In this document: positions 495 to 20,800 of the stretch, one piece after another
Position numbering within the stretch: position 1 is the first letter of the stretch
How the letters are laid out: the number at the start of each line of letters is the position of its first letter
Assembly: GCA_039545295.1 (NCBI GenBank)
Contig: BCIK01000011.1
Coordinates: forward strand, 724,853-788,852
Reading direction: 5' to 3'
DNA: 64,000 bases
From: Udeniomyces pyricola
Lineage: Eukaryota; Basidiomycota; Tremellomycetes; Cystofilobasidiales; Mrakiaceae
The notes under the pieces: model-generated
The model's database searches: none
What the model saw: the letters and a program-made list of their open reading frames with translations, nothing else
Told to the model about the DNA's origin: nothing
Position numbers and translations under genes: made by a program

Positions 495-3400
495 TCAGTC
501 TTTCGACTTGCGTTTCCTACCTCCTCCTGACGCACCCACGCCGGGAGAATCCTGATCCATCGCGGCGCTTCCAGCAACAACTTTCGAAGTGGGCGTGGCC
601 GTGTTCTTCTTAGCGGACGAAGAGGAAGGAATCGTTCCGCTGCCGTTGAGGGATCGACGAGGCGTGGCAGAGGAAGACGAAGGGGGTTTGAGAGAGCCGT
701 TGTTAGATTTGGTACTAGAAGGGAGACCGTTGGGTTTAGAAGCGGCTGCTTGTTGAGGGGAAGGAGCGGGAGGTGGTGGGTGGGTGGAGTCGATGGAACT
801 CGCTGTGAATCGTGAATATATCAGAGTCGGGAATGATTTGACAGAAGAGGAAGATTTAGTCAGCAAGAGCATTGGTGCAGACTTGAGACGCAACAACAAC
901 AAAAAAGAGAATACAGAGGAAGATGATTGTTGCAAAGACGTACCAAAGAGATCCCGGAAGAGACTAGCGAGTCCCGCAACGTGCTCATCGTCAACCGATC
1001 GAACACCCCGAGCAGCGGCTTCTGCGGCTGCGATTCGAGCCGCTTCGGTTCCTTCGTCCACTTCCATTCCATCACCCTCCTCTTCCTCTTGAACGTCTTC
1101 CTCCTCATCTCCATCCTTCCTCAAGTCAAGCACACCCTCCAAAACTTCCTCGTAGATCATGCCCATGTCTGGAAGAACCATGGCAGAACCTTCAAAGAGG
1201 TCCACAAGCGACTTGTAGGCCTTGGGTGCCGTGATGGGACGCGCGCCGACAGCAGCAGTAGCAGCAACCATCGTGGGGGTACCAAAGATTTCATCGAACA
1301 ACGACCGACCGGAAGTCGTTCCATCAGCCGGCGCGCTCGCCGTCGCAAGAGACTGAGTCGAATCGGATGAAGCTTCGAGGTTAGGAAGCGTCTTTTTGTC
1401 GCCGACAAGGAGAACGTCCCACGTGTTGGTGATGACGAGGAGAGCGATCGAAGTCTCTTCGACGGAGAGCGTCGAGGAGGTCGAAGGTGTCGTCGAAGGT
1501 GGGATGGGGTACGCGGCGAGGGACCGAACGAGTTGAGGAACCACTCGTTGACGAACGGGCAGTGGGGATTGAGCGGAAAAGACGGAAAAGGCCGTCGAGG
1601 AGGATGTCGATTGCTCAGAAATGGTGAAGGAAGCGCTGCAAGGATGGCTAACGAGGTGCTCGATAGGCTGGTTGGGCAACGACCAAAGAACTATAGAAAG
1701 GGAATGTAAGGATGAAAGTCAGCAGTGACTCTCATCAAAGCTCACTTAGTAGGTCAAATCCTTGACATGCGTCCATCGAACTACTCACCTGAACCGTTGA
1801 CAAGATCCCAAGTGACCAATCCCTTCTTAGCTCCCGCGCCGACGATCCATCGACCGTCCTTACCAGAGAAAACAACCTTCTTGATCTCGGTCTTGCCAAA
1901 CTCGGAGCAAGCGAGCGTGCCTCGGAGGGTCGAGCTGATAGGGTCCCAAAGGGTCACGACAGAACCCTGGGCGAGCGCAAGGATCGCCCCGTCAGGTGAC
2001 CATGCGGAATCGTAGATAGGAAGCGATCGATGAGAGAAGAGAGTATGGGGTTGGAAGAAGGCTTTATGACCAAAAAAGACAAAGAAAAGACCAAGTTAGC
2101 ACAAGTGTTCAGGATGAAAGGGGGAGGAAGAACATGGACGACACGACGACGACGACGATGCAAATGTCCCATCAGAATTGCAGAACTATGGGGATCCACA
2201 TGCACTTTGCGGTATTTATGGGAAACTTCGCGCCCCCTCTCGAGACGATCGGGGGCTTGAAGGGATGTGTTAAGTTTTCATCATGGGGACATGCTCGTCG
2301 TTGGGTCGTCGCGTCGTATCGCACATGTGTATGAATATGCGGACAGTCGCATGGGTCGGAGAGAACGGGACAAAAGCTCACCTTGATACGCGACACAGGC
2401 GAAGCACAGCAAGAAGTGACAAACAAACAAAAGATCAGGTCAGTAACGTCATCCAGCGCAAACAGAACAGACGGATGTGTGAGTAAGAAAAGTGAGCCAG
2501 AAAAGGTGCCCTCAGCAAAGAAAGAAGAAGAGGTTGTGTCTACAGCATGTGTTTAAGACTGTTGAGCTTTTGAACCCGAAGGTCCGGTTTGTTCATCATT
2601 GGGCGGTGGAAGCTCGATGGGTCGTCGAGAAAAGGGAGGATGGGACGTCGACCAAAGAGATGAGATATATGAACAAGCGGCTTACCTTAGTGGGGTAACG
2701 ATCCAACGAAGCAAGCAGTCGAGAAAGAGGGGAGACGGGATGAAAACGGAATGACCGTTAGTATCCAGTATCTTTTTCAACAGAAAGATCGGAGGCATGT
2801 GTGCACAAGATTGGGGGAAGGTGAAAAGAGATGGGAACGAGGGATCCTCAGAAATAAAGAAGAAGGGTTTGTCTACAAGCTTGTATTAAGACTGTTGAGC
2901 TTTTAAACTATTGTTTGTTTTGGTCATCATAGGACACTCGTAGGGTGGAGAATGATGATGGGTAGGAGATGGGGAGAAGCTTGCAAGGCTTGAAATGACT
3001 GCTTCGATTGAAGAAACGATGCTTACCTGCGAAACAAAAAAAGGGGGAGGGGAAGAGGGAGAAGAGGCGTCAGTAAGGAGTAGATGGAAGAACCAGTATA
3101 CTTCAAGCAAGATGATCGAACGCAACGACGTTGACGATGAGAATACCCTCAGCAAAGAAAGAAGAAGAGGTTGTGTCTACAGCATGTGTTTAAGACTGTT
3201 GAGCTTTTGAACCCGAAGGTCCGGTTTGTTCATCATAGGGTATTCTCGATCGCACCATCGATGTCTCGACTGTCTCCTCAACCAACTCAGAGAGCGCAGA
3301 GAAGATGAACAGGATATACACACCTTCGATTCGACCGCCTTTGTATCGGATTCGCTTCTCGCGCCAGAGTCGAGCGGTACCTTCGACGTCGGTCGAGACG

Positions 3401-5808
3401 AGCATCGTCGAAGTCTGCTTGTCGGCGGCAAAGACTTGAACGGGTGTCGGAGAGAAGGTCAAGGAAGTGATGGAGCTCGTGTGAGGGTTCGCGAGTCGAG
3501 TGGTCAGGACGTAACTAGACGGGTCGAAAAAGGAGATGTGTCAGCCCAAATAGCATTGCAAACGGACACAATGCAAAAGATTGCCTAGTAGAAAACGTAC
3601 GTCTTGAGATTCTCATCCCAACGCCAGGCCTTGAGCATCCTCTCTTCGGCACCACCTTCCTCCTCATCGGCATCACGAATTTCACTCGTGGCCATCCACT
3701 CGGCGCTCTCTCCGTTCTGTCCAGTAGAGGAGAGCACAGCGCGTTCGACGCGAGCCGGATCGACGGGCTTGTCGTCGGCGGCAGAGACACGGTTGGAAGG
3801 GGAAACCTCGAGCTCGAGAAGCGCCGTCTGGAGGCTGGGCGAGAAAAGTTGCAAAGACGAGGGATGAGACGAGGGAAGAAGAACCGAGGCAGTTTGAGGG
3901 TGGAAGGCGAGGGGCGTGGGAGACGAAGCGGGGGGAGAAGGAGTGGGTTCTAGATGGGCGAATCGAAAAAGAGCGAAAAAAAATATATTGTTCAGCATCG
4001 GTACTAACAACCAATGAGTGGGCAAGTTAGAAGCAGAGGCGCGTACCGGTTCGAGAGCTCTCGTAACCACCCTTGATCATCCTACCACCTCGACCATCAC
4101 CTCCGACCTTCTTGACGGCACCGTCGAGCAAACCGACCCAACTCTCCTCCTCCCTCGCCTGGGCGGGCGGTCGAACCGCGACGCTGACGATGGGGCCACC
4201 CAGCCTCGGGGCAAACTCTTTAGCGCCGGTGGCGATGTTCCAAACAACAAGAGTAGCCTCCTGACCAACGGAGAGGACGCTCGTACCCGAGGTGTTAAAG
4301 GCGATGGCCGAAACGGCATGGGCGTGCCAGTGAAGCGTTTGCGTCGGGGTTTTGCGAATGCCGAGAGCAGACGCTCGAAGGGCAGCATCATCAACGTTCT
4401 TCTGACTCGACGTACGACTCTGAGCGACGTCGGGCAAGCAGTACCACAGCCGAACGACACCCTGAGAGTCACCGGTAGCGAACCAGTCCTCGGTTGGGTG
4501 AAACGCGCCAGTGGTGAGGACGTCGGGCGAGACAAACTTGGAGAAGCCGAGCGAGAGGTCGTTGGTTCGGATGCAGTACGCCTTGCGCTCGCCGAGAGCG
4601 ACGAGGAACTCGCCAGAGGGGGAAAGAAGCAGAGCAGAGCACGGTCGAACTCGCTGGATCTTGGTGTGTGCGAGTTGAGGGCGGTTGAAAGCTTTCTTTC
4701 CTGGAGCGGCAGTGGGCTTGGAGCTGGGCGCAAAGTCGACCTTCCAGATGGTGGATTGAGTACCGTCTTCTGACTTGGCTGAAGTAATGGTGAAAGAAAA
4801 AAGGATCGAGATGCGTCAGCAAAATTCCGTTTGGAAGGGAGGGAAGAGGGCAGCAGCGCGGATGAGCCTGCGCGCTAACATGCGAGGATACTCGAATACT
4901 CACAGTCTTTTCCGCCACTGGACTTGGTTGCAGCGTACCAACTACCGTCCGAGCCTGCAACGAGGTGGGTGATGGGACCAGCAATCTTGAGGGTTCGCAC
5001 AAGCGATCCATCCAGATAATCCCAAACCTTGAGCGTGCCGTCAAGGGACGCCGTCACGAGCTGAAGCGGGTTGGTCGGGTTGAGGCAGTAGGCGCTGATG
5101 GCAGCGGTGTGACCATCCTTGCCAATCGATAGGGTCGAGACGGGCTGGCACGTCGTGGACGAGTGGATACGAAGGGTGGACCCATTGGAAAGGAAGAAAT
5201 GGCTATTTTGCACGAAAGAGAAAAGAGGGAAGGAAGAGAAGAAAAAAAGGAGAAGAAAAAAAAAAGACGGGATAGAGGCCAAGCGAACAAGAGCCTTGAG
5301 TATTGCATTCGAGCTTCATGATCGTGTATTGTCCATGTTTTGAGTAGGAACAAGGTGGTATGTTGAAGACTTACGCGGCATCCTTGGTGAAAACGGGAGG
5401 GTGTTTGGGCACCGAAGAACCCACGACGAGGGAAACCCCCCAAGTCTCGAGGGCCGAGTGGTCGACAGCGTTGGGGTGGATGGCGCTTGCGGATAATCCT
5501 AGGCTGGTAGAGGCGGCGTGGGCGGCACGAAGACGACCTTTGTCCTTGCCATGCTTCTTGCCGGTTTTGGGGGTAGCGGTGGTGGGAGCGGTTGAGGTGT
5601 TGGAGGGAGAGCCAGAGGCAGCGGGGGGCAAAAGACTGGCGGCCTTTGAGAGCGAGGAAGGGGTGTGGGCGTGCTTGGGGGTGTGGGTGATGTGAAGGGT
5701 TGGGTGCTGCTTTGGGAAGGCTGGCGATGGCTTTGGGGTCGCCTTGGACTTGTCGCTCGAGATGAGGGGTACCTTTGAGCCGGCCTTGAGAGGGGTGGCA
5801 GACGACAT
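495..5808 (-). CDS. NAN1: WDR75/Nan1-like WD40 protein of the U3 snoRNP (SSU processome), snoRNA host
   Basis: Predicted nucleolar WD40 protein of the t-UTP/UtpA module, which acts in rDNA transcription and early 18S processing. About eight coding exons give roughly 1,100 residues, starting MSSATPLKAG at 5808. Exon 1 (to about 5376) is a basic Lys/Thr/Pro-rich tail. WD repeats follow: TASLDGTLKVWDYLDG, FATGDSQGVVRLWYCLP, VGQEATLVVWNIATG, VSTDVEGTARLWREKR, and AWSPDGAILALAQGSVVTLWDP. The C-terminal part has an acidic block and ends in GGRKRKSKD, a nuclear-localisation-like tail. Arrangement and spacing match WDR75/Nan1 (Utp17). Exon 5 ends in phase 1 at 3324 and exon 6 begins at 2061, keeping frame. 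The 1.26 kb between them is an array of four snoRNA-bearing introns. A conserved Trp/Cys segment of the family, expected at this junction, was not found, so a missed microexon is possible. It is transcribed divergently from the uL1m gene. Confidence 0.85.
2164..2292 (-). ncRNA. Intronic box C/D snoRNA, predicted guide for 5.8S rRNA G75 (U96-like)
   Basis: Lies in the last of the four array introns (2062-2381). Read on the minus strand, box C ATGATGA is at 2284-2278 and box D CTGA at 2175-2172. They are enclosed by a perfect 7-bp terminal stem, ATGTCCC (2292-2286) with GGGACAT (2170-2164). The ten bases directly upstream of box D (2185-2176) are the exact antisense of AAUUGCAGAA in 5.8S rRNA. 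By the box D+5 rule the target is the G in AAUUG, which is position 75 in human 5.8S, a known 2'-O-methyl site guided by U96/SNORD96. Box C to box D spans 113 nt, long but within range. It should be released from the debranched intron lariat. The rRNA match is from memory of the conserved 5.8S sequence and was not searched. Confidence 0.8.
2376..2384 (-). promoter_or_regulatory. Recursive (ratchet) splice site 3
   Basis: On the minus strand acceptor CAAG (ending at 2382) is followed directly by donor GTGAGC (starting at 2381). A TTACTGAC branch-point sequence lies near 2438-2447. The stretch from there to the acceptor is pyrimidine-rich and has no other AG. Confidence 0.62.
2508..2604 (-). 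ncRNA. Intronic box C/D snoRNA, copy in array intron 3
   Basis: Lies in the intron 2382-2685. Minus-strand box C ATGATGA is at 2599-2593 and box D CTGA at 2515-2512, with a 4-bp terminal stem GCCC/GGGC. The segment 2509-2599 is identical over 91 bp to 3146-3236. An internal antisense element AAGCUCAACAG is complementary over 11 nt to the conserved LSU rRNA segment CUGUUGAGCUU. It is followed by a degenerate D' (CTTA) and a C'-like TGTAGA. The bases upstream of box D do not match any rRNA segment I recall, so the D' guide is the likely functional one. Confidence 0.78.
2681..2690 (-). promoter_or_regulatory. Recursive (ratchet) splice site 2
   Basis: On the minus strand acceptor TAAG (ending at 2686) is followed directly by donor GTAAGC (starting at 2685). 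A consensus TACTAAC branch point lies near 2755-2764. No AG occurs in the roughly 70 nt between it and the acceptor, so the first usable acceptor abuts the donor. AAG is a weaker acceptor than CAG. Confidence 0.62.
2843..2936 (-). ncRNA. Intronic box C/D snoRNA, diverged copy in array intron 2
   Basis: Lies in the intron 2686-3026. Minus-strand box C ATGATGA is at 2930-2924 and box D CTGA at 2851-2848. The terminal stem is short and weak (three Watson-Crick pairs plus one G-U). It is a clear paralogue of the other two copies: most of the body has diverged, but an 18-nt block around the LSU antisense element (2887-2904) and the C'-like TGTAGA are unchanged. Conservation of the guide amid divergence supports function. 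The weak stem leaves open that it is decaying. Confidence 0.65.
3021..3030 (-). promoter_or_regulatory. Recursive (ratchet) splice site 1
   Basis: On the minus strand an acceptor CAG (ending at 3027) is followed without a gap by donor GTAAGC (starting at 3026). Upstream are branch-point sequence TTACTGAC (near 3068-3076) and a long pyrimidine tract with no other AG. This is the textbook form of a zero-length exon: joining upstream exon 5 here regenerates a donor. Confidence 0.75.
3142..3244 (-). ncRNA. Intronic box C/D snoRNA, copy in array intron 1
   Basis: Lies in the intron 3027-3323. Minus-strand box C ATGATGA is at 3236-3230 and box D CTGA at 3152-3149. A perfect 7-bp terminal stem AATACCC (3244-3238) with GGGTATT (3148-3142) encloses them. 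The body is identical over 91 bp to the copy at 2509-2599. The flanking stem differs in sequence but still pairs, so the stem changed in a compensatory way. The D'-type antisense element reads the LSU rRNA segment CUGUUGAGCUU (plus-strand 3196-3206). Box C to box D is 88 nt, typical for the class. Confidence 0.82.
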
Positions 5809-10382: not shown

Positions 10383-12413
10383 ATGGACTCCGATCAACTC
10401 TTTCACCTCCGACAGCTCTTTTACCAAGGTTCGGCCATCTGACATGTTCGAACCTCTCCTCTCTCTTCATCAGACGAATTACGCTAAACAACATGCTCAT
10501 CACGTCTCATTGGTCCCCCCCCCCCCCCCCCCGCCCTCCAACTTGTCGTCAAACGCGATTCCTCCCTTTCCTAGGCAGCTACGATTCTTGTTTGTCCTTC
10601 CTTCTTCTGCTTCTCCGTCACATCTCTCCCCATCTTTGTGTTTCAAGACTGACCCAAGATCCCACACCTACGCTCTCACTACAGGCATCTCCACTGGGAC
10701 ACCTCTTCTTGCCTCTTCCCCTTCCTCGTCGTCCTCTCTAGCGGCGACAACGCCAGAGCAAGTATCCTTGACCGTCTACGTCGCCCGCGCCCATCTCGCC
10801 CTCAGCCCGCCCCAAACGGATCGGGCTATTGAGATCCTTGCAGGGCTCGTCGATGACCATGTCGAAGCTAAAGGTTGGTTCCTTTTTGGATGTGTTTCAG
10901 ATCTCTCCCCTCCGGTTCTCTTCTGCGGGTTAAATACCATGAGTGTCTGAATGGATCAGAAGGGAGAGATCCATTCCCAATGTTCCCCATCTTCATACGT
11001 CTCCATCCTCACACCCTTCCTTTCCTTCGAACCCCTTGCCCCCCTCTCTCTCTCTCTCTCTCTCCTTCTTCTTCCTCTTCTTCTTCTTCTCCTCGTTTCA
11101 AAGCCATCACCCATCTAGCCGAATACCTCTCCTCTCCTTCTCCTACCTCTCCCTCTCTCGACTCCCTCCGCGACATCCTCATCGAACTCGAAGAAGAAGA
11201 CCAACATCCATCGTTATCAGAAGAAGGCCCCGCTATCGCCAAGGGAGCAGCGGCGACGGCGTTTTTCCTCGCGGGTGAATTGGAGGAGGCCGTAGATGTG
11301 TTGGCGCAGGAGAATAGGAATTTGGAGTGGTGAGTCCTTGAAGAGAGAGAGAGTAGTTGGAGGATAAAGAGAGAGAGAGAGAGAGAGATTTAGGGGAACT
11401 CAATGTTCCAGACGCGTCTTCAATGCGCGGCGCGGATGGAATGACGCTCTCTTCCTCCTCCTCCCCCCCCCCTACTCCCTTTGTCCAAGACACGTTGACT
11501 GATCCTTCTTCCCATCTTGGAACCTCCATCCCATGTATGTCGCTCATATAGTGTGGCGCTTCTGGTCCAGATCTATCTCACCATGAACCGATTGGACCTC
11601 GCGAAGCGGGCGTACGAGGGCGCCAAGACGTGGGGGGAGGATTCGTTGCTCGTTCAGTTGATGGAAGCTTGGATCGCTATGCGGACTGTACGTCTCTTTT
11701 TTTTTCTTTTCTTTCAATGTATACAGGCGCGTTTCGTGGGCTGGAAGGAGAAGAAAAGGAAGGAAAAGGGAGAAGAAAAAGAAAGAAGAAAGAAGAAAGA
11801 AAGAAAGAAAGAAAGAAGGAAACAGAAGGGGGGCCAAGCAAGGGAGATTCCCGCCCTGTTTGGTTTCTTTCTTTCTTTCTCCTGGTCTTTTTTTTTTTTT
11901 TCACCCGACCTCTTGCGTTATCGAAACCTGTTTCTATCATCTTCTGTTTGTTTGTTCTTTGTTTGTCGCTCTTGTGACTGATTTCCCCCCCCCCCCCCCC
12001 CCCCTTCTGTCTCCCCCTTCTCATCTCCCTGTCTCTCTCCTCGCCTTCGCCTTTCTCAGCAAGGTCCCTCACTCCAACAAGCCTACTACGTTTACGATGA
12101 ACTTCTCTCTCTTCCTCACGGTCGAACGCCAACCCTTCTCGCCTCGCACGCCGCCGCTCATTTCCTTCTCGCTCATTACGACGAAGCTAAAGGCGACGTC
12201 GAAAATCTTCGAACCTTGCTTCTCGAGCAACAGGAAGGAGGAGGAGGAGGAGGAGGGGTAGGAGGACCAGCGTGGGAAGGGGTGTGGAAAGCGGTTTTGG
12301 GCGTCAAAGGTGGAGGAGGAGGAGAGGGAATCACCGTCGGAAGGAGCGAGGAAGAAGAAGCTTTGGAGAGGAAATTCGAGGCGGCCGCAAAGAAGTTTGG
12401 GGTGGAAGTTTAA
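10383..12413 (+). CDS. SEC28: Coatomer epsilon subunit (epsilon-COP)
   Basis: Subunit of the COPI B-subcomplex that stabilises alpha-COP in Golgi-to-ER vesicle coats. MDSDQLFHLRQLFYQG starts at 10383 and matches the family N-terminus (elFhvRq.FyqG.Y). Exon 1 is 10383-10428, exon 2 is only 15 nt (10575-10589), and exon 3 starts at 10685. Together they read FYQGSYDSCISTGTPLL in frame. Downstream exons encode the TPR-like solenoid: YVARAHLALSPPQTDRAIEI, CVALLVQIYLTMNRLDLAKR, LQQAYYVYDELLSLPHGR, and AAHFLLAHYDEAKGDVE. The end is LERKFEAAAKKFGVEV. Introns carry two poly-C tracts (10515-10532 and 11985-12004). A Gly-rich insert sits near the C-terminus. The small exon 2 is inferred from frame and splice motifs. 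Confidence 0.85.
10515..10532. repeat. Poly-C tract, 18 bp, epsilon-COP intron 1
   Basis: Eighteen consecutive C on the sense strand between exon 1 and the microexon, lengthening the pyrimidine tract of the intron. Confidence 0.9.
10575..10589 (+). other. 15-nt microexon of epsilon-COP
   Basis: The bases GCAGCTACGATTCTT lie between acceptor CCTAG and donor GTTTGT. Exon 1 ends in phase 1, exon 2 keeps phase 1, and exon 3 resumes in frame. Together they restore the family motif FYxGxY. Without it the conserved Gly-Ser-Tyr is lost. Confidence 0.7.
11985..12004. repeat. Poly-C tract, 20 bp, epsilon-COP late intron
   Basis: Twenty consecutive C on the sense strand in the intron before the exon starting near 12058. 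The same intron holds T-rich and GAAA-rich tracts. Confidence 0.9.
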
Positions 12414-13127: not shown

Positions 13128-15173
13128 CTATTCCAATCTCCTAATGAGGTCCTCCAACCTCCCTCGGATCCCACGCATGACGTCCTCGGAGACGACGCCT
13201 TGTTCCCAACTGAAACTCACTGCTAGTCGTCGAGTTGTTGCTGCGCTCTCTTCTTCGAGATCGGAGTGGGTGTGAGCGTGAGCGTGAGAGGAGGTGGTGA
13301 GGATGGAGAGGACGAAAGCGGGACCGAGAGCTTGAGCGGGTTGAGTGAAGAGGATCTGGTCGTTTCTGTCGAGGAGGACCAGAGGAGGAGAGGCAGAGGA
13401 AGAAGCAGGACGGGGTGGTGTCAATGTCGATAAGGGATCGACGTCGATGGGAGGAAGAAGACCGAGATTGGAAATCTCAAACGTCGTCGACCGAGGTTGA
13501 TCGAGTTTCGTTCGGAAAAACGTCGGCCAACTGCTTATAGACGAGATTGACGAAGAAGACGAGATCGACGAGGACGCCGATGGTGGAGAAGTTCCGATGA
13601 GCCTCTTAGGGATGTAATTTAGCATCCCCCAAGGTTTGACGGAACCTCTTAATTGGACTGGATCGCGAAGGATCTGAAAGTGTCGCCGGGCTTCGTCAAA
13701 CACGTCGCTCAGGGATATTGAAGGCATCATTAGGTCAGAGGTGGGGGTACCATTCTTCAAGGCAGGTACTTGAACGGTCAGGGCCCCGACGTAGGTTCCC
13801 ATGGTATTGGAAGGTAATGAACGAGGAGTGATGAGTGCTCGTGCGTTGACAGCGATCAGAGAGGATAGGTTCAATGGCATCGTTGGGCTTTCAGATGATA
13901 CGGAAGAAGATGTCGACTGCAAGGAGCTGAGAGTCGAGGTGAGGGCGAAACATGTAGCGGCGTGAAGGAACGATGTGATGGAAACGCCTTCTTGACGACA
14001 TCGCTCGAGAAGGCGCGTTGGGTCGCCAAGGAACAATGAAGTTTGACGTTTCTGTCGAGGATGAGCCGGGAGGCCAGACATCGTAGTAGATACGGCGCCT
14101 GCCCAGATAGGAGAGGGTGTTGGCCGAAGAAATTGAGGGAGATGAGGAACGACGAGGGAGGAAAAGATTTCTCTGACTAGGTCGAGTTTGGATGGCGTCA
14201 CGTCGATAAGGGATTCGAGGGATGGAGGAAACGTTTCAGAAGGTGGTACGGGGTCAAGTTGGAGTGATTTGGCGAGTGAGTTGGAAGATGAGGGTAAAGC
14301 ATGGTCAGATGACGAGCAATGAAGCGGTGCTTTTGAGTGGTGAGCGAGTGTCTTCAACAGCGACCGGGTGACGGTCCAAGCGGCTCCTCCATCATAGAGA
14401 CAATGGTGACCTAAGAAGCCGACGATGACGGTCGATCCAACAAGACCATAACAGACTCTCCAAAGGGGTTTCTCGATGTCTTCGATGGCGAGATCAACTT
14501 GCATGATTCGCTCCGCCGCTAGATCAAAGATGCGCTCGATGTCTCGTTGGCCTTGAGATTGTCTGTCGTCTGGTATCGATGGCTGCTGAATCACCGCGCC
14601 CTCTACGAGCCCGTCAAATGCGGGGCCGATGTCAATGAGCGCATGTTCAAGGGTGAGGTTGGACAGCCACGCAAACGATGGGGTTTCGGAGTGAACGTCA
14701 ATGACGGTCGCAAAGAGGATCGGGTGAGTCGAAGCGAGCGAGATAAGAGACTGAGCGAGGATGGTTTGGATGTTCACGCTGCGCTCTGGGGCTGAGGTGG
14801 TATTAGTTGATGCCTCCGAGGACGCGGATGGGAAAGGACAATCAAAGGAAGCCAGAATGATAGGAGCGGGTTGCGAGCCGATGAGAGATCTATGATTATA
14901 GGCGGTTGCGGCGAGCCAGACGTGTTGATGATGTTGGAGATATGGGCATACATGTACGTTCAAAGATATCGTCAGCTTTTGATGGACGTTACGATCATGC
15001 GATGATGCAGATGCATGCGGTGAGCACTTTCAGCCCGGCGGATGGATCTGAGGTTGATTGAGTGGACATGTGAAATGAAGTCTAGCTGACCGAGTGAGGC
15101 TGTATCGTTCGCTAAGCCCCAGTGGCCTGATGGGATGATGGAGCGGCTGGGCGAGGGTCGGCTGCGACGGCAT
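13128..15173 (-). CDS. AATase-like O-acyltransferase (condensation/BAHD-type fold)
   Basis: Probable acetyl-CoA-dependent acyltransferase. The large exon (to about 14960) carries the catalytic HHxxxDG motif as HHCLYDGG, and before it TLEHALIDIG and KPLWRVCYGLVG. No ATG lies in that frame before the conserved start. The N-terminal exon probably begins with the ATG at 15173 (MPSQPTLAQPLHHPI), because it then reads RPLGLSERYSLTR. That is the usual opening of the alcohol acetyltransferase (AATase) family, which continues into HVWLAATAYNH in the large exon. The intron joining the two could not be fixed: the donor is near 15078 and the acceptor near 14980. The substrate is unknown. It is divergent from a cell-wall protein gene. 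It ends LEDLIRRLE at 13128. Confidence 0.7.
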
Positions 15174-15617
15174 GGGCAGGATGGGACGGAGGCGGTGTAG
15201 TTGTTAGTTGGTGGTCAGAGGAACACAGGATCGACGTCGCTGCCAAGGCAAGTGAGTACTGATCAGTGGCGGTCAACTGCGGGCAAAAAAGTAGACTGGA
15301 TGAAAGCAGGAAAGAGAGTTGCGACGCGCGGCGACGCGACGCGACGATTACCAATTAGATGTCAAAGGACGCGTTGTTGATTGAGGAGTGACTACCTGAA
15401 TGCGGAGAAGGAAGGGGGGAAAGGTCAGTCACGCTTTAGTCGGTCGATGGTCCCCCCGCCTTTTCGTTGAACGGTTTACTTTCTTGCTTTTCATCTTGCA
15501 TCATCATCCCTTTCTTTCTCTCTTCCTCTCACTCTCACTCTCTCTTTTTCCTTTCACACACCTACAGCCCCCCACACACACACACACTCACTCAGTCCAC
15601 CCACAGTCCTTTCAACC
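15174..15617. promoter_or_regulatory. Divergent promoter, acyltransferase and Kre9-like genes
   Basis: About 440 bp between divergent starts. The plus-strand half (15490-15617) is a CT/CA-rich tract (CTCTCACTCT, CCCCACACACAC) typical of a pyrimidine-rich fungal promoter or 5' UTR of a highly expressed gene. A GCGACGCGACGCGACG stretch at 15330-15345 is GC-rich and near-repetitive. Confidence 0.5.
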
Positions 15618-17188
15618 ATGCTCGCTTCTACCGTCCTTTCTGCCCTCGCCCTCGCCGCCGCCGCCTCGACCCAGGCCATTCAAGTCACTTACCCTACCAA
15701 GTACGACACCTGGTCCACCTCGGGCTCTCAGGTGAGCATATCCCCTTCAGTCCATCTGTGTCCTTGTCTACATTTGGCTTCCCAAAGCTACGGCTCGACC
15801 GTATCGTCATCCATGATGACAAGCACCTGAAAAGCAAATAGCAAGAGGCCCAAGCTGATCAACATGCTCTCGCTTTCCCTCATAACTCTCTCAACTCGTG
15901 CTACCATCTACCCTTTTCGATGATGCAAACTCCAGGTCGTCAAGTGGGACTCTGTCTCAACTGACCCGACGTCGTTTGCCATGGTCCTCGTGAACCAGGT
16001 GAGGCCCCGTTTTGCCTACTTAACTGGAGGCGCGTGCGGTGTCTGAAAGGGGACACAGGGGGGGGGGGTTTGAGGAGGGGCAAAGGAGGGGGCGGCGAGC
16101 TTGCGCTTGTTTTGCGAAACACTTGGCTCTTCGACTCGCAGTCCGTCTCGTCGTCTTCCTGTGCCGGACCATCCATGTCATACGCCGTCCAAAGATAGCC
16201 AAAAGCTGCTTACGTCTAAAACAGGACGCATCTCCATCGACCGAACCTCATGTTAATAGGGGAATTGTGCTCGAAATAGACATGGAACCAACTGACCAAC
16301 CATCATCTTGTCGCCCAAACTTGGGGGTTTCTCGTTGTTTACGTTCAGGATTCTTCTTACCTCGCCTCCACGACCACTTTGAGCGACAACACTACCACCT
16401 CATCCAACCAGGCCAGCGTCAGCTTCCCCAACGGTGACTTCCCCGTTGGCACCCAGTTCCAGGTCAACTTCATCAAGAATATTCAGTCGGAGAACTCGAT
16501 CCTCGCCCAGTCGGCCTACTTCAACATCACCCAGTCGGCGACCTCGTCTTCGTCGTCTTCCTCGTCTGCGTCTTCCTCGTCTTCGTCCTCGTCTTCCTCG
16601 TCTGAGTGAGTTTCTTGGTTTTTGTTTCTTTTCTCCAGTCCAGGAGGGGGGGGGGGAAGTCCTATGTATAATCTTGTGCTCCACGCATTCAGCTAACATC
16701 GCGTCCTCTTTCTCCATTCATGCATCATCCGTCGGCTTTTCTTCCGTTTGTCGTCTTCAGTAGCGCCAGCACGGCTGCTCTATCCTCCATGACCAAGGCC
16801 GCTGCCTCTTCCGCCTCGGCTGCTGCGTCGTCCGCTACCGACTCGGCGTCGGCCGCTTCCGGTTCGGGAGGACTCAACATTCCCGTACGTGTGGTTCACC
16901 TGGTCATGTCCCCTCGAGGCCTCTCATCTCGAGCAAAGAACAAGACAACTATATCTGACTTGTTTTTTTTTTCCTTCTTTGTTTCTGCTTTCTTCCTTTC
17001 TCCTTGTTTTGAACTCCTCGCGACTCCCTTTGTTGGTTTCGTTCGTCGTGACACCTTGGCCTTTTGTCGATGTTCCTGTTCTTCAGTCTGCTTCGACCAC
17101 CAACACCTCGGGCGCGTTCTCCTCCGTGACCCTCACTCCGACCTCGCTCCTCGCCGTCCTCGGCCTCATCGGTGCCGCTCTCATCTAA
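15618..17188 (+). CDS. Kre9/Knh1-like Ser/Thr-rich GPI-anchored cell-surface protein
   Basis: Predicted secreted wall or membrane protein. The signal peptide MLASTVLSALALAAAASTQA begins at 15618. The Kre9/Knh1-type N-terminal beta-sandwich domain follows: IQVTYPTKYDTWSTSGSQ, VVKWDSVSTDPTSFAMVLVN, DFPVGTQFQVNFIKN, and ILAQSAYFNITQSAT. Then come a long Ser tract and Ala/Ser/Thr-rich stalk over several exons. The C-terminus SLLAVLGLIGAALI is a hydrophobic GPI-attachment signal ending at 17188. Five exons are visible, with introns near 15732-15935, 16000-16350, 16608-16760 and 16885-17090. Introns hold G runs of about 10 bp. The family includes small basidiomycete GPI proteins of unknown role. 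Assignment to beta-1,6-glucan assembly as in yeast Kre9 is not established. Confidence 0.8.
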
Positions 17189-17884: not shown

Positions 17885-20800
17885 TCAGATGACGATGAGA
17901 TCACCTTCGCAGCATTTACACCAGATGATGCCTTCGCGATCGGAGAATTGAGGAGGAGGAAGAAGTTGGAATGGGGAGGCAGCATGCAGAGGAGGGTCGA
18001 CGAAGGAAGATGAAGTAGAAGGAGAAAGAGTAGAAGAAGAAGGTTCGGGTTCGGTCTCTTCTTCTCCTAGAGAACCGAGATGAGTCGGTTTACTATAGCT
18101 ACTACTGTGATAGTTGTTGTTGTTGTTTCCAGTTATCGTCCCACTCAGATTTGAACTCGTTCCCAACCCGTTCAGAACGGAACTCGAAGTTCCCATCCCT
18201 ATTCCTCCTCTCAAGCCCGCCAGACTGCCTCCTCCGAGAGAAGATGACGACGGAGAAGGGGCCATTCGAGCTTTGAGCATCGACAACGAGACGTTCCTCG
18301 CGTGTTTGGACGAAGCCGAGAGGTCAGCGTCGATCGGTCTCGATGCGTGGAGCGATTCGAAGGGGTTGAGATGCGATCCCGGAGGGGTCGAAGCGGAAGA
18401 AGAGAGAAGTGGGGGTGAGAAAAGGGGGGTGGAAGACGAAGGGGAAGTCGCACGGATCTTGGAAGAGGGTTGTTGGTATTGCTGTTGTTGTTGGACCGTT
18501 TGATGTTGACGTTCAAGCTTGAGGACCTTAGCTTCAGCCAACCCTTGAGCCCGTTGAGCTTCAAACAAGGTCCCTTCCAACTCCCGGATTTGACTCCTCG
18601 CAGCGCTAAGTTCCAATTGCGTACTCGTCGTTACCTCCTCTTCGACTTCCCCTCTCGCCTTCTTCTTTTCCTCCTCCTCCTCCTTTTCTTCCACTCGAGT
18701 GACTTCTCCTTCTTCTCGCTGTTGGTCAGCCAGAGCCGTAACTTGTCGTGATCTCGTCGAGGCCTCCCCTTCCAACCTCGCCACTTCCTCTTTCAACCTC
18801 TCGACTTCCCCTTCCAACACCTCTCCATTCCTCAGGACCGTCTCCTTGGCTTCTCTCGCCTCTTCGACTTGCTTCCTCAGCGCCGGGAGCGCTTGAATTT
18901 CCAGTTCGGTCAGCTGGCTAGCGGTCGAGGCGAGTTCGGCGGTTCGGGTGGAGAGGGTCGATTCGAGATCGGCAACGTTGGTTGTCAGGGACGTCTGCGC
19001 CATGCGAAGGGAACCGATCTCTGACGTGAGAGTCTCGAGGTTGGTCTTGGCAAGGGTAGATTCAGCAAGAAGGGTAGTGATTCTGTCAAAGAAGGAAGAA
19101 CGAGGAGGGGAAAGATCAAGGGGAATGAAGAGCAACGAGCACAAGTGTCAGTTACGAGTTAATTCAGTGAAGCCTCCCTTCCCCCCCCCCCTCCCCCCAT
19201 CCCCCCAACGAACGCACGAAGACGGAAAGCAAACAAACTGGACTGAGACTTACTCTTTCTCCAATTCCTTAACTTTGTCCTTACTTTCCTTTTCTCTTTG
19301 TCCACTTTTGCTCCCTTCGCCTTTCAACCTCTCCACTTCTCCCCTAACCTCCTCCAGTGCCTCTCTCAACCCCTCCTGAACTTTCTTCTCCGCTTCGGCT
19401 TCCCTCTTCCACCCTTTCTCTTCCCTCTCCATCCTCTCCCCAACTTCAATCCTCTCCTCTTGGACCTCGACCAACTTGCCTCTCATCTCCTCCAACTGCT
19501 CCATCGCTTTCGTGTTCTCTCCCTGCAACGCTCCGACCCGAGCGAGGGCATTCGTGAGTTTCCCTTCGAGGATCGTCGCTTTCGACTCGAACGCTTGGGT
19601 CTCCTCCTCCCTCGCGTCGGATCGGTCCTGGAGTTCACTGTGCGTGGTTTGGAGTTGAGAGAGTTCGGCTTGGGTGGAGGAAAGTTCGGTTTGGAGCGTT
19701 GAGACGTGGGATTCAAGGGTTGGAATGGTCGTTTTGAGGGCGGTTTGGTGCGTGGTGGTGAGTTCGGAGAGGGAGGTCGTCGTTTGGGTGTGAATAGCTT
19801 CGAGGGCCTCGAGGGACGACGTCGTGGTTGAGAGGCTCGTCTCGAGTGTAGTGGACTTGAGAAGAAGGTCTTGGTTCGTCTGTGAAAAAAAAAAAGATGA
19901 AGATAGAGATTGGTTCAAGATATAGAATGTATACGAACAGAGGGGGGTGGAGGAAGTGAGGAAAGAGAGATTAATAAGACGGTTCATAAAGTTGTTTTCT
20001 TCGAATCCTTTGAGGTAAGAAAAGTCCTGCCTTGCAAGCGATAGAAGAAAAGATGACGATAAGAAAAAAGAAAAGAATGACCCACTTTTTTCAACCTTCC
20101 GACTTCCCTCTCCAATCCCGTTTCTTTCTCTCTCACCCTCTCCAACAACCCCTCCAACTCCTTGACCCTTCCTTCGCCTTCTTCCAATCCTTTCATCCTC
20201 TCTTCCATCGTTTGCACCTTGGTCGTCATCTCTTCCCTCTCCCCTCTCAACATCTCAACTTCATCTTTCAATCCTTCCCCTTCCCTCACTCTCCGTTCTA
20301 AGCGTTCACTTCCCGCTTGCAAGTCCCGTCGTTCTTGCTCCAACACCTCTATCCGCGCCTCGAGTCGTCGACAGGTCTGTTGGGCTGAGCCCAAGGAACC
20401 CTGGGCTTCCGCATGCGATGATTCGGCGAGCGAGAGTTGGGAGGTCAAGGTGGAAAGTTGGGTTTGGAGTGATTGCTTGTCGGCCACTAGGAGGGAAAGT
20501 GTGGATTGTTGGGACGCGATCCGCGCGTGAAGGGGTGCAGTGTCTTCTTGGATAGCAGCGGGGGCGGGAGATGGATTGGTCGAAGGGGACGGTTCGACAG
20601 TTCCAGCGGCAAGAGATGCGATGTTGGATGATGAAGGCAGTGCTGCTGCTGATGATGATGGTGATGAAGTTGAAGAGGTGTCGGGCAAAGGTGATGATGA
20701 TGGCAAAGACGACATGGTCTCCGACGCTGGCTCTGAAGACACATCTTCTTCCTGCGTATCTTTCTCCGTCATCTCCTTCTCCGGATTGAGGGGACCTTTG

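Follow-up and report, generated by a model that had tools for sequence, protein, structure and literature searches.

A putative array of four head-to-tail, exon-less introns carrying C/D-box snoRNA-like elements in the WDR75/Utp17-like gene of Udeniomyces pyricola

The window, the 64-kb stretch of DNA analysed here, belongs to an assembly of 25.0 Mb in 38 contigs and contains a WDR75/Utp17-like gene whose coding exons 5 and 6 are separated by an intervening sequence of 1,262 nt (3323-2062, minus strand). Judged from its sequence, this region is probably, though with no great assurance, composed of four complete introns lying head to tail, which would be removed by recursive, exon-less splicing with one C/D snoRNA in each lariat. 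Unit 1 (3027..3323, minus strand, as are all four) is 297 nt long, with donor GTGTGT, branch A at 3070 (ACTGACG) and a CAG acceptor. Right after this CAG, unit 2 (2686..3026; 341 nt) begins with donor GTAAGC; it has its branch A at 2758 (ACTAACG) and ends in a weak AAG acceptor. Unit 3 (2382..2685; 304 nt) again starts with GTAAGC directly after this AAG, with branch A at 2440 (ACTGACC) and acceptor AAG, which is followed at once by the donor GTGAGC of unit 4 (2062..2381; 320 nt; branch A 2096, GCTAACT), whose own AAG acceptor adjoins exon 6. The original prediction had described four back-to-back intron units with zero-length exons, each inner border being the first AG after a branch point followed immediately by a donor, and the sequence agrees with it in coordinates, lengths, donors, acceptors and branch points.

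The host gene has eight exons with a reading frame of 3,333 nt, encoding a protein of 1,110 amino acids. Exon 5 (3324..3514, minus strand) ends in GAAG and is joined in frame (G|CC) to exon 6 (1789..2061, minus strand). That the outer exons join in this way had been predicted and is borne out by the full-length protein, by its two Pfam WDR75 propellers, both above cutoff (PF23869, 112.7 bits versus 45; PF23769, 84.2 versus 27), and by its top PDB match (E 6.9e-38), the WDR75 chain of the human structure 7mq8. The alignment with this chain spans the join of exons 5 and 6 and leaves zero WDR75 residues unmatched there, which suggests that no coding exon has been overlooked at this point. A CTRAY branch point is lacking from intron 1 (5374-5203, minus strand; manually placed), whereas the gene's remaining introns have one.

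The prediction of single-cargo introns was given substance by the finding of one C/D-box snoRNA-like element in each unit. When RTGATGA...CTGA elements closed by a terminal stem of at least 4 bp were sought, one was returned per unit, and eight more matches in 408,000 strand-bases, which comprise the window and 14 ten-kb stretches on both strands. The elements, all on the minus strand, are S1 (3149..3236; ATGATGA...CTGA, terminal stem of 8 bp), S2 (2848..2930; 4 bp), S3 (2512..2599; 4 bp) and S4 (2172..2284; 7 bp), and the RUGAUGA C box, CUGA D box and terminal stem of C/D-box snoRNAs are present in four out of four. Rfam matches define described families, not the C/D-box snoRNA class. None of S1 to S4 reached an Rfam gathering score, the best match being snoR116 with 24.1 bits versus 47. 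Upon comparison with shuffled sequences, S4 folded better (z −2.5) and S1-S3 no better than the shuffles. The geometry is similar throughout: in all four units the donor lies 86-97 nt from the C box and the D box 71-89 nt from the branch A, and a branch-point range as narrow as this arises under random placement with P about 0.008.

S4 represents a separate family, while S2 is a paralogue of S1 and S3 (71 of 89 aligned columns identical); whole-genome searches found three copies of the S1-S3 kind and one of S4. S1 and S3 agree in all of 88 nt, and no similarity is detectable between their flanks; the intervening S2 differs in about 20% of aligned columns. This identity suggests gene conversion or recent copying confined to the snoRNA. 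Beyond the identical cores, the stems read ACCC/GGGT in S1 and GCCC/GGGC in S3, the fourth pair being compensatory (A-U versus G-C).

Candidate target sites were predicted in 25S rRNA (CUGUUGAGCUU) and 5.8S rRNA (AAUUGCAGAA). By reading, and as a lead only, the segment AAGCTCAACAG kept in S1-S3 complements 28S CTGTTGAGCTT, which occurs within a published 28S primer (PMC9275221). In S4, the ten bases preceding the D box (TTCTGCAATT) complement 5.8S AATTGCAGAA, again by reading and as a lead only. AATTGCAGAA belongs to the region of the human Gm75 site. Neither the conserved LSU word (exact) nor the 5.8S word (at most one mismatch) had a match in the whole assembly, from which the rDNA appears to be missing or to have been withheld. 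An identity of S1-S3 with snR190/snR107/SNORD12 was considered for binding near 25S G2395 and was not adopted, because the conserved D'-side guide, by yeast numbering, fits about 12-22 nt farther downstream. Passages on these snoRNAs place their binding near 25S G2395 (PMC8536666, PMC11971394).

In the splicing mechanism proposed, each unit removed would bring exon 5 up against the following GT and thereby rebuild a donor (AAG | GTAAGC, GTAAGC and GTGAGC in turn), until in the last step exon 5 would meet exon 6. The rebuilt donors score 5.95, 6.68 and 6.76, versus 5.93 for the original. Each lariat would then be opened by debranching, and trimming would stop at the snoRNA protected by its stem. 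All 24 possible orders of removal keep GT...AG and yield an identical mRNA. By analogy with the published fungal arrays, removal from 5' to 3' would be the likeliest; the strongest acceptor among the units is that of unit 1. Each of the 15 combinations of retained units brings a stop codon 33-48 codons past exon 5, and incompletely spliced transcripts would therefore not yield a full-length protein of altered sequence. Such an arrangement would probably serve to give every snoRNA a short intron of its own with a constant spacing to the branch point of that intron, and to obtain four snoRNAs, three of them of one family, from a ribosome-assembly gene with its protein unaltered.

The strength of the splice sites was assessed with a gene model trained on 221.6 kb of the same genome, which gave 241 predicted introns without RNA support; this set counts the array region as one intron, and percentiles refer to the 240 others. 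Modelled introns have a median length of 117 nt and a 95% quantile of 382 nt, which places the units, with 297-341 nt, at the 93rd-94th percentile. The donors of units 1 to 4 rank at percentiles 57, 48, 75 and 77. Their acceptors rank at 77 (CAG), 0, 7 and 22 (all three AAG), at 44, 73, 59 and 35 nt from the branch A to the unit end, respectively. Modelled acceptors are CAG in 151 cases, TAG in 83, AAG in six (array region included) and GAG in one, so that three of the four unit acceptors belong to a rare type (6/241). The acceptor of unit 2, at border 2686/2685, scores 0.58 nats, below every modelled intron, a rank of 0 that is partly built in because the gene model took only acceptors above 1.0. 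The AAG of unit 4 must be used if exon 6 starts where the frame requires, and a modest AAG acceptor therefore seems to function at this locus.

The weakness of the second border is the main point in favour of mixed acceptor use, a reading we hold to be rather unlikely. Here, any one of the four acceptors may be chosen by the donor of exon 5, and lariats carry either one or two to four snoRNAs; border 2686/2685 is often skipped, with units 2 and 3 leaving together as a 645-nt intron. Readings of the gene model that omit this border outscore those that use it, and the data of Luo et al. 2013, by their own statement, are also compatible with one functional donor choosing among acceptors (PMC3596301). 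The donor at 2685, however, is strong (75th percentile) and is placed right at the first AG past a TACTAAC branch point, a position which is unexplained if the donor is unused.

When zero-length exons were allowed, the gene model returned a single 1,262-nt intron. Without the acceptor cutoff, the single intron scored −6.0 nats and a split at border 1 (3027/3026) only −6.5, followed by −10.6 for the use of borders 1 and 3 (3323-3027, 3026-2382 and 2381-2062); the four-unit reading scored −14.8 and came 7th out of eight, the single intron being ahead by 8.7 nats. The model charges each extra intron about 10-11 nats in prior (start plus length) and is blind to snoRNAs, for which reasons its preference is weak evidence against four units. 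It does favour one polycistronic intron, from which the four snoRNAs would be released through a single lariat or by nucleases acting on the unspliced transcript, the inner AG|GT sites being relics of intron growth. Nucleases can release clustered snoRNAs. We nevertheless consider this improbable: the three AG|GT borders are intact and have branch points, whereas relics should decay, the length would be far over the 382-nt quantile, and each snoRNA lies at a similar distance from its own branch point.

Small exons between the units could also have been missed. Internal acceptor/donor pairs, 0-400 nt apart and keeping the frame, were ranked with the requirement that longer pairs be stop-free, and the three zero-length pairs took ranks 1, 2 and 3. 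Alternatives of 9 nt (3026-3018) and 57 nt (2381-2325) keep the frame and are stop-free; they come fourth and fifth, their donors scoring 0.2 and 3.8 nats versus 5.7 and 6.8 for the zero-length pairs at the same acceptors. Together with the absence of unmatched residues in the WDR75 chain of 7mq8 at the join, this makes missed exons very improbable.

The 1,262 nt contain 76 GT and 42 AG dinucleotides and three AGGT, located exactly at the borders 3027/3026, 2686/2685 and 2382/2381, and every border has a CTRAC branch point upstream with no AG between. The border motif (CTRAC, an AG-free gap of 6-80 nt and AGGTRAG) has three occurrences in the array and two in the rest of the 408,000 strand-bases, and among 20,000 dinucleotide shuffles of the region it appeared not at all in 19,974, once in 26 and never twice, figures which are descriptive because the motif was chosen after the array had been seen. 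The site scores, descriptive likewise since their minima were also chosen afterwards, single out 17 other AGGT sites of 1,672 (443,210 strand-bases) meeting both minima of the three borders, seven of which fall in stretches picked for having such sites (L004-L008); 0.048 are expected per 1,262 nt and at least three there with a probability of about 2e-5. The three borders and the anatomy of the units are beyond chance. It is scarcely credible that the borders are coincidental and the snoRNA-like matches a chance content of one long intron: AG|GTRAG near CTGAC is indeed found elsewhere, without genome-wide enrichment over a reversed control, but two borders were never seen in the shuffles and the snoRNA spacing recurs in all four units.

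The genome was searched for further arrays with several patterns. CTGACN{12,42}YAGGTRAG matched 64 places in the whole genome versus 137 in the control; five AG-free places among the 64, picked by eye, are L004-L008. L004 was rejected as an array, being an ordinary kinase-like exon that starts with GTAAGC. Two C-box patterns matched 45 places (control 5) and 17 places (control 6) and are uninformative on the rarity of the array, since neither recovered it. A corrected pattern of branch point, border and C box found 46 places, including border 1 (control 9). The gap is AG-free in four of these 46, and pyrimidine-rich only at border 1 (93%, versus 42-56% in the others). Borders 2 and 3 are outside the range of the corrected pattern, which would thus overlook any array whose branch points are of the TAAC type or lie farther from the border.

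Elsewhere in the window, an ATGATGA...CTGA element with a 6-bp terminal stem was observed at 15425-15507 (minus strand), between the predicted divergent genes 13128-14953 (minus) and 15618-17188 (plus); it is possibly a C/D snoRNA, possibly a chance match. A SNORD52 match at 20690-20760 (plus strand; 27.9 bits, under the gathering score of 45), adjoined by GATGAT-rich sequence, is probably due to chance. A long purine/pyrimidine (AAAG/CTTT) inverted repeat at 11717-11953 yields sub-threshold Rfam microRNA and snoRNA matches.

As to the origin of the array, the recurrence of one snoRNA in units 1-3 suggests copying. We tentatively propose that a coding gene grew a one-RNA-per-lariat array by repeatedly gaining introns with a snoRNA inside, each at the precise site of an existing splice junction, where insertions would be invisible in the mRNA, and not by loss of exons; we rate this as possible, somewhat short of probable. 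If true, zero-length exons would follow naturally from intron gain at AG|GT, and repeated gain would raise the snoRNA dosage from a ribosome-assembly gene. Among 12 pairwise comparisons of the unit flanks, the upstream flanks of units 3 and 4 gave p 0.005, the downstream flanks of units 1 and 2 p 0.058 and the other ten p 0.125-0.515, which, with 12 tests made, gives no clear sign of whole-intron duplication. For the multiplication of snoRNA introns, units 1 and 3 offer a test case, their snoRNA cores being identical and their flanks showing no detectable similarity. If the array is spliced as proposed, fungal recursive splicing of snoRNA introns would also take place inside a protein-coding gene, by way of three consecutive zero-length exons, and a 1.26-kb reporter, in which every step has a snoRNA readout, would allow its order, kinetics and fidelity to be measured.

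The ratchet points of long animal introns are zero-length exons with AG|GTAAG, a branch point and a pyrimidine tract, at which the donor is rebuilt in each step. A likeness to them had been part of the original prediction and stands as far as the sites are concerned: AG|GT, branch point and AG-free tract are all present, the acceptor at 2686 being weak. It fails on scale, since animal ratchet points subdivide introns of many kilobases and the array measures 1.26 kb with a snoRNA-like element in each piece, and the fungal arrays are closer. Like the stwintrons described in passages on, for example, the Hypoxylaceae, the array is a complex intervening sequence of a fungus with successive splicing proposed; unlike them, it has no interrupted splice element, each unit retaining its GT, branch point and AG (PMC8469720).

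The accompanying view that no fungal array of such a kind had been described was contradicted by the literature. In fungal snoRNA clusters, Luo et al. 2013 report intron-intron-intron structures, supported by 42 EST products and by RT-PCR, and explain them by 5'-to-3' stepwise splicing or by one donor choosing among acceptors (PMC3596301). In Donovan et al. 2016, recursive splicing with an exon size of zero is given for cluster II and a zero-length exon is cited for cluster III of Debaryomyces hansenii (PMC5033589). The principle of exon-less fungal snoRNA introns is thus already known from these examples, which are backed by EST, RT-PCR or RNA-seq data.

Like clusters II and III of Luo et al. 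(snR57-55-61 and snR41-70-51), the array consists of consecutive exon-less introns holding snoRNAs, known here from sequence, whereas the EST and RT-PCR products of those clusters fit a 5'-to-3' stepwise removal (PMC3596301). According to the same passages, the clusters are non-coding host transcripts of Hemi-, Eu- and Archiascomycetes that are explained by exon loss; the array, by contrast, has coding flanks (WDR75/Utp17) and four units, three of which contain copies of one snoRNA, and is a variant outside clusters I-III (PMC3596301). With cluster II of Donovan et al., in Candida parapsilosis and relatives, it shares the zero-size exon between snoRNA introns. That cluster has two pathways, nested sites and a one-base exon, while the array has complete units and all 24 orders work (PMC5033589). 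Single fungal snoRNAs in coding hosts, such as RPL7 and NOG2, are likewise known (PMC8476143). Among the matches listed from the openly licensed literature, none described duplicated snoRNAs in an array that is flanked by coding exons and has three zero-length exons in a row. The WDR75/Utp17 array may thus be new among these fungal systems in its coding host, its run of three zero-length exons and its snoRNA copies.
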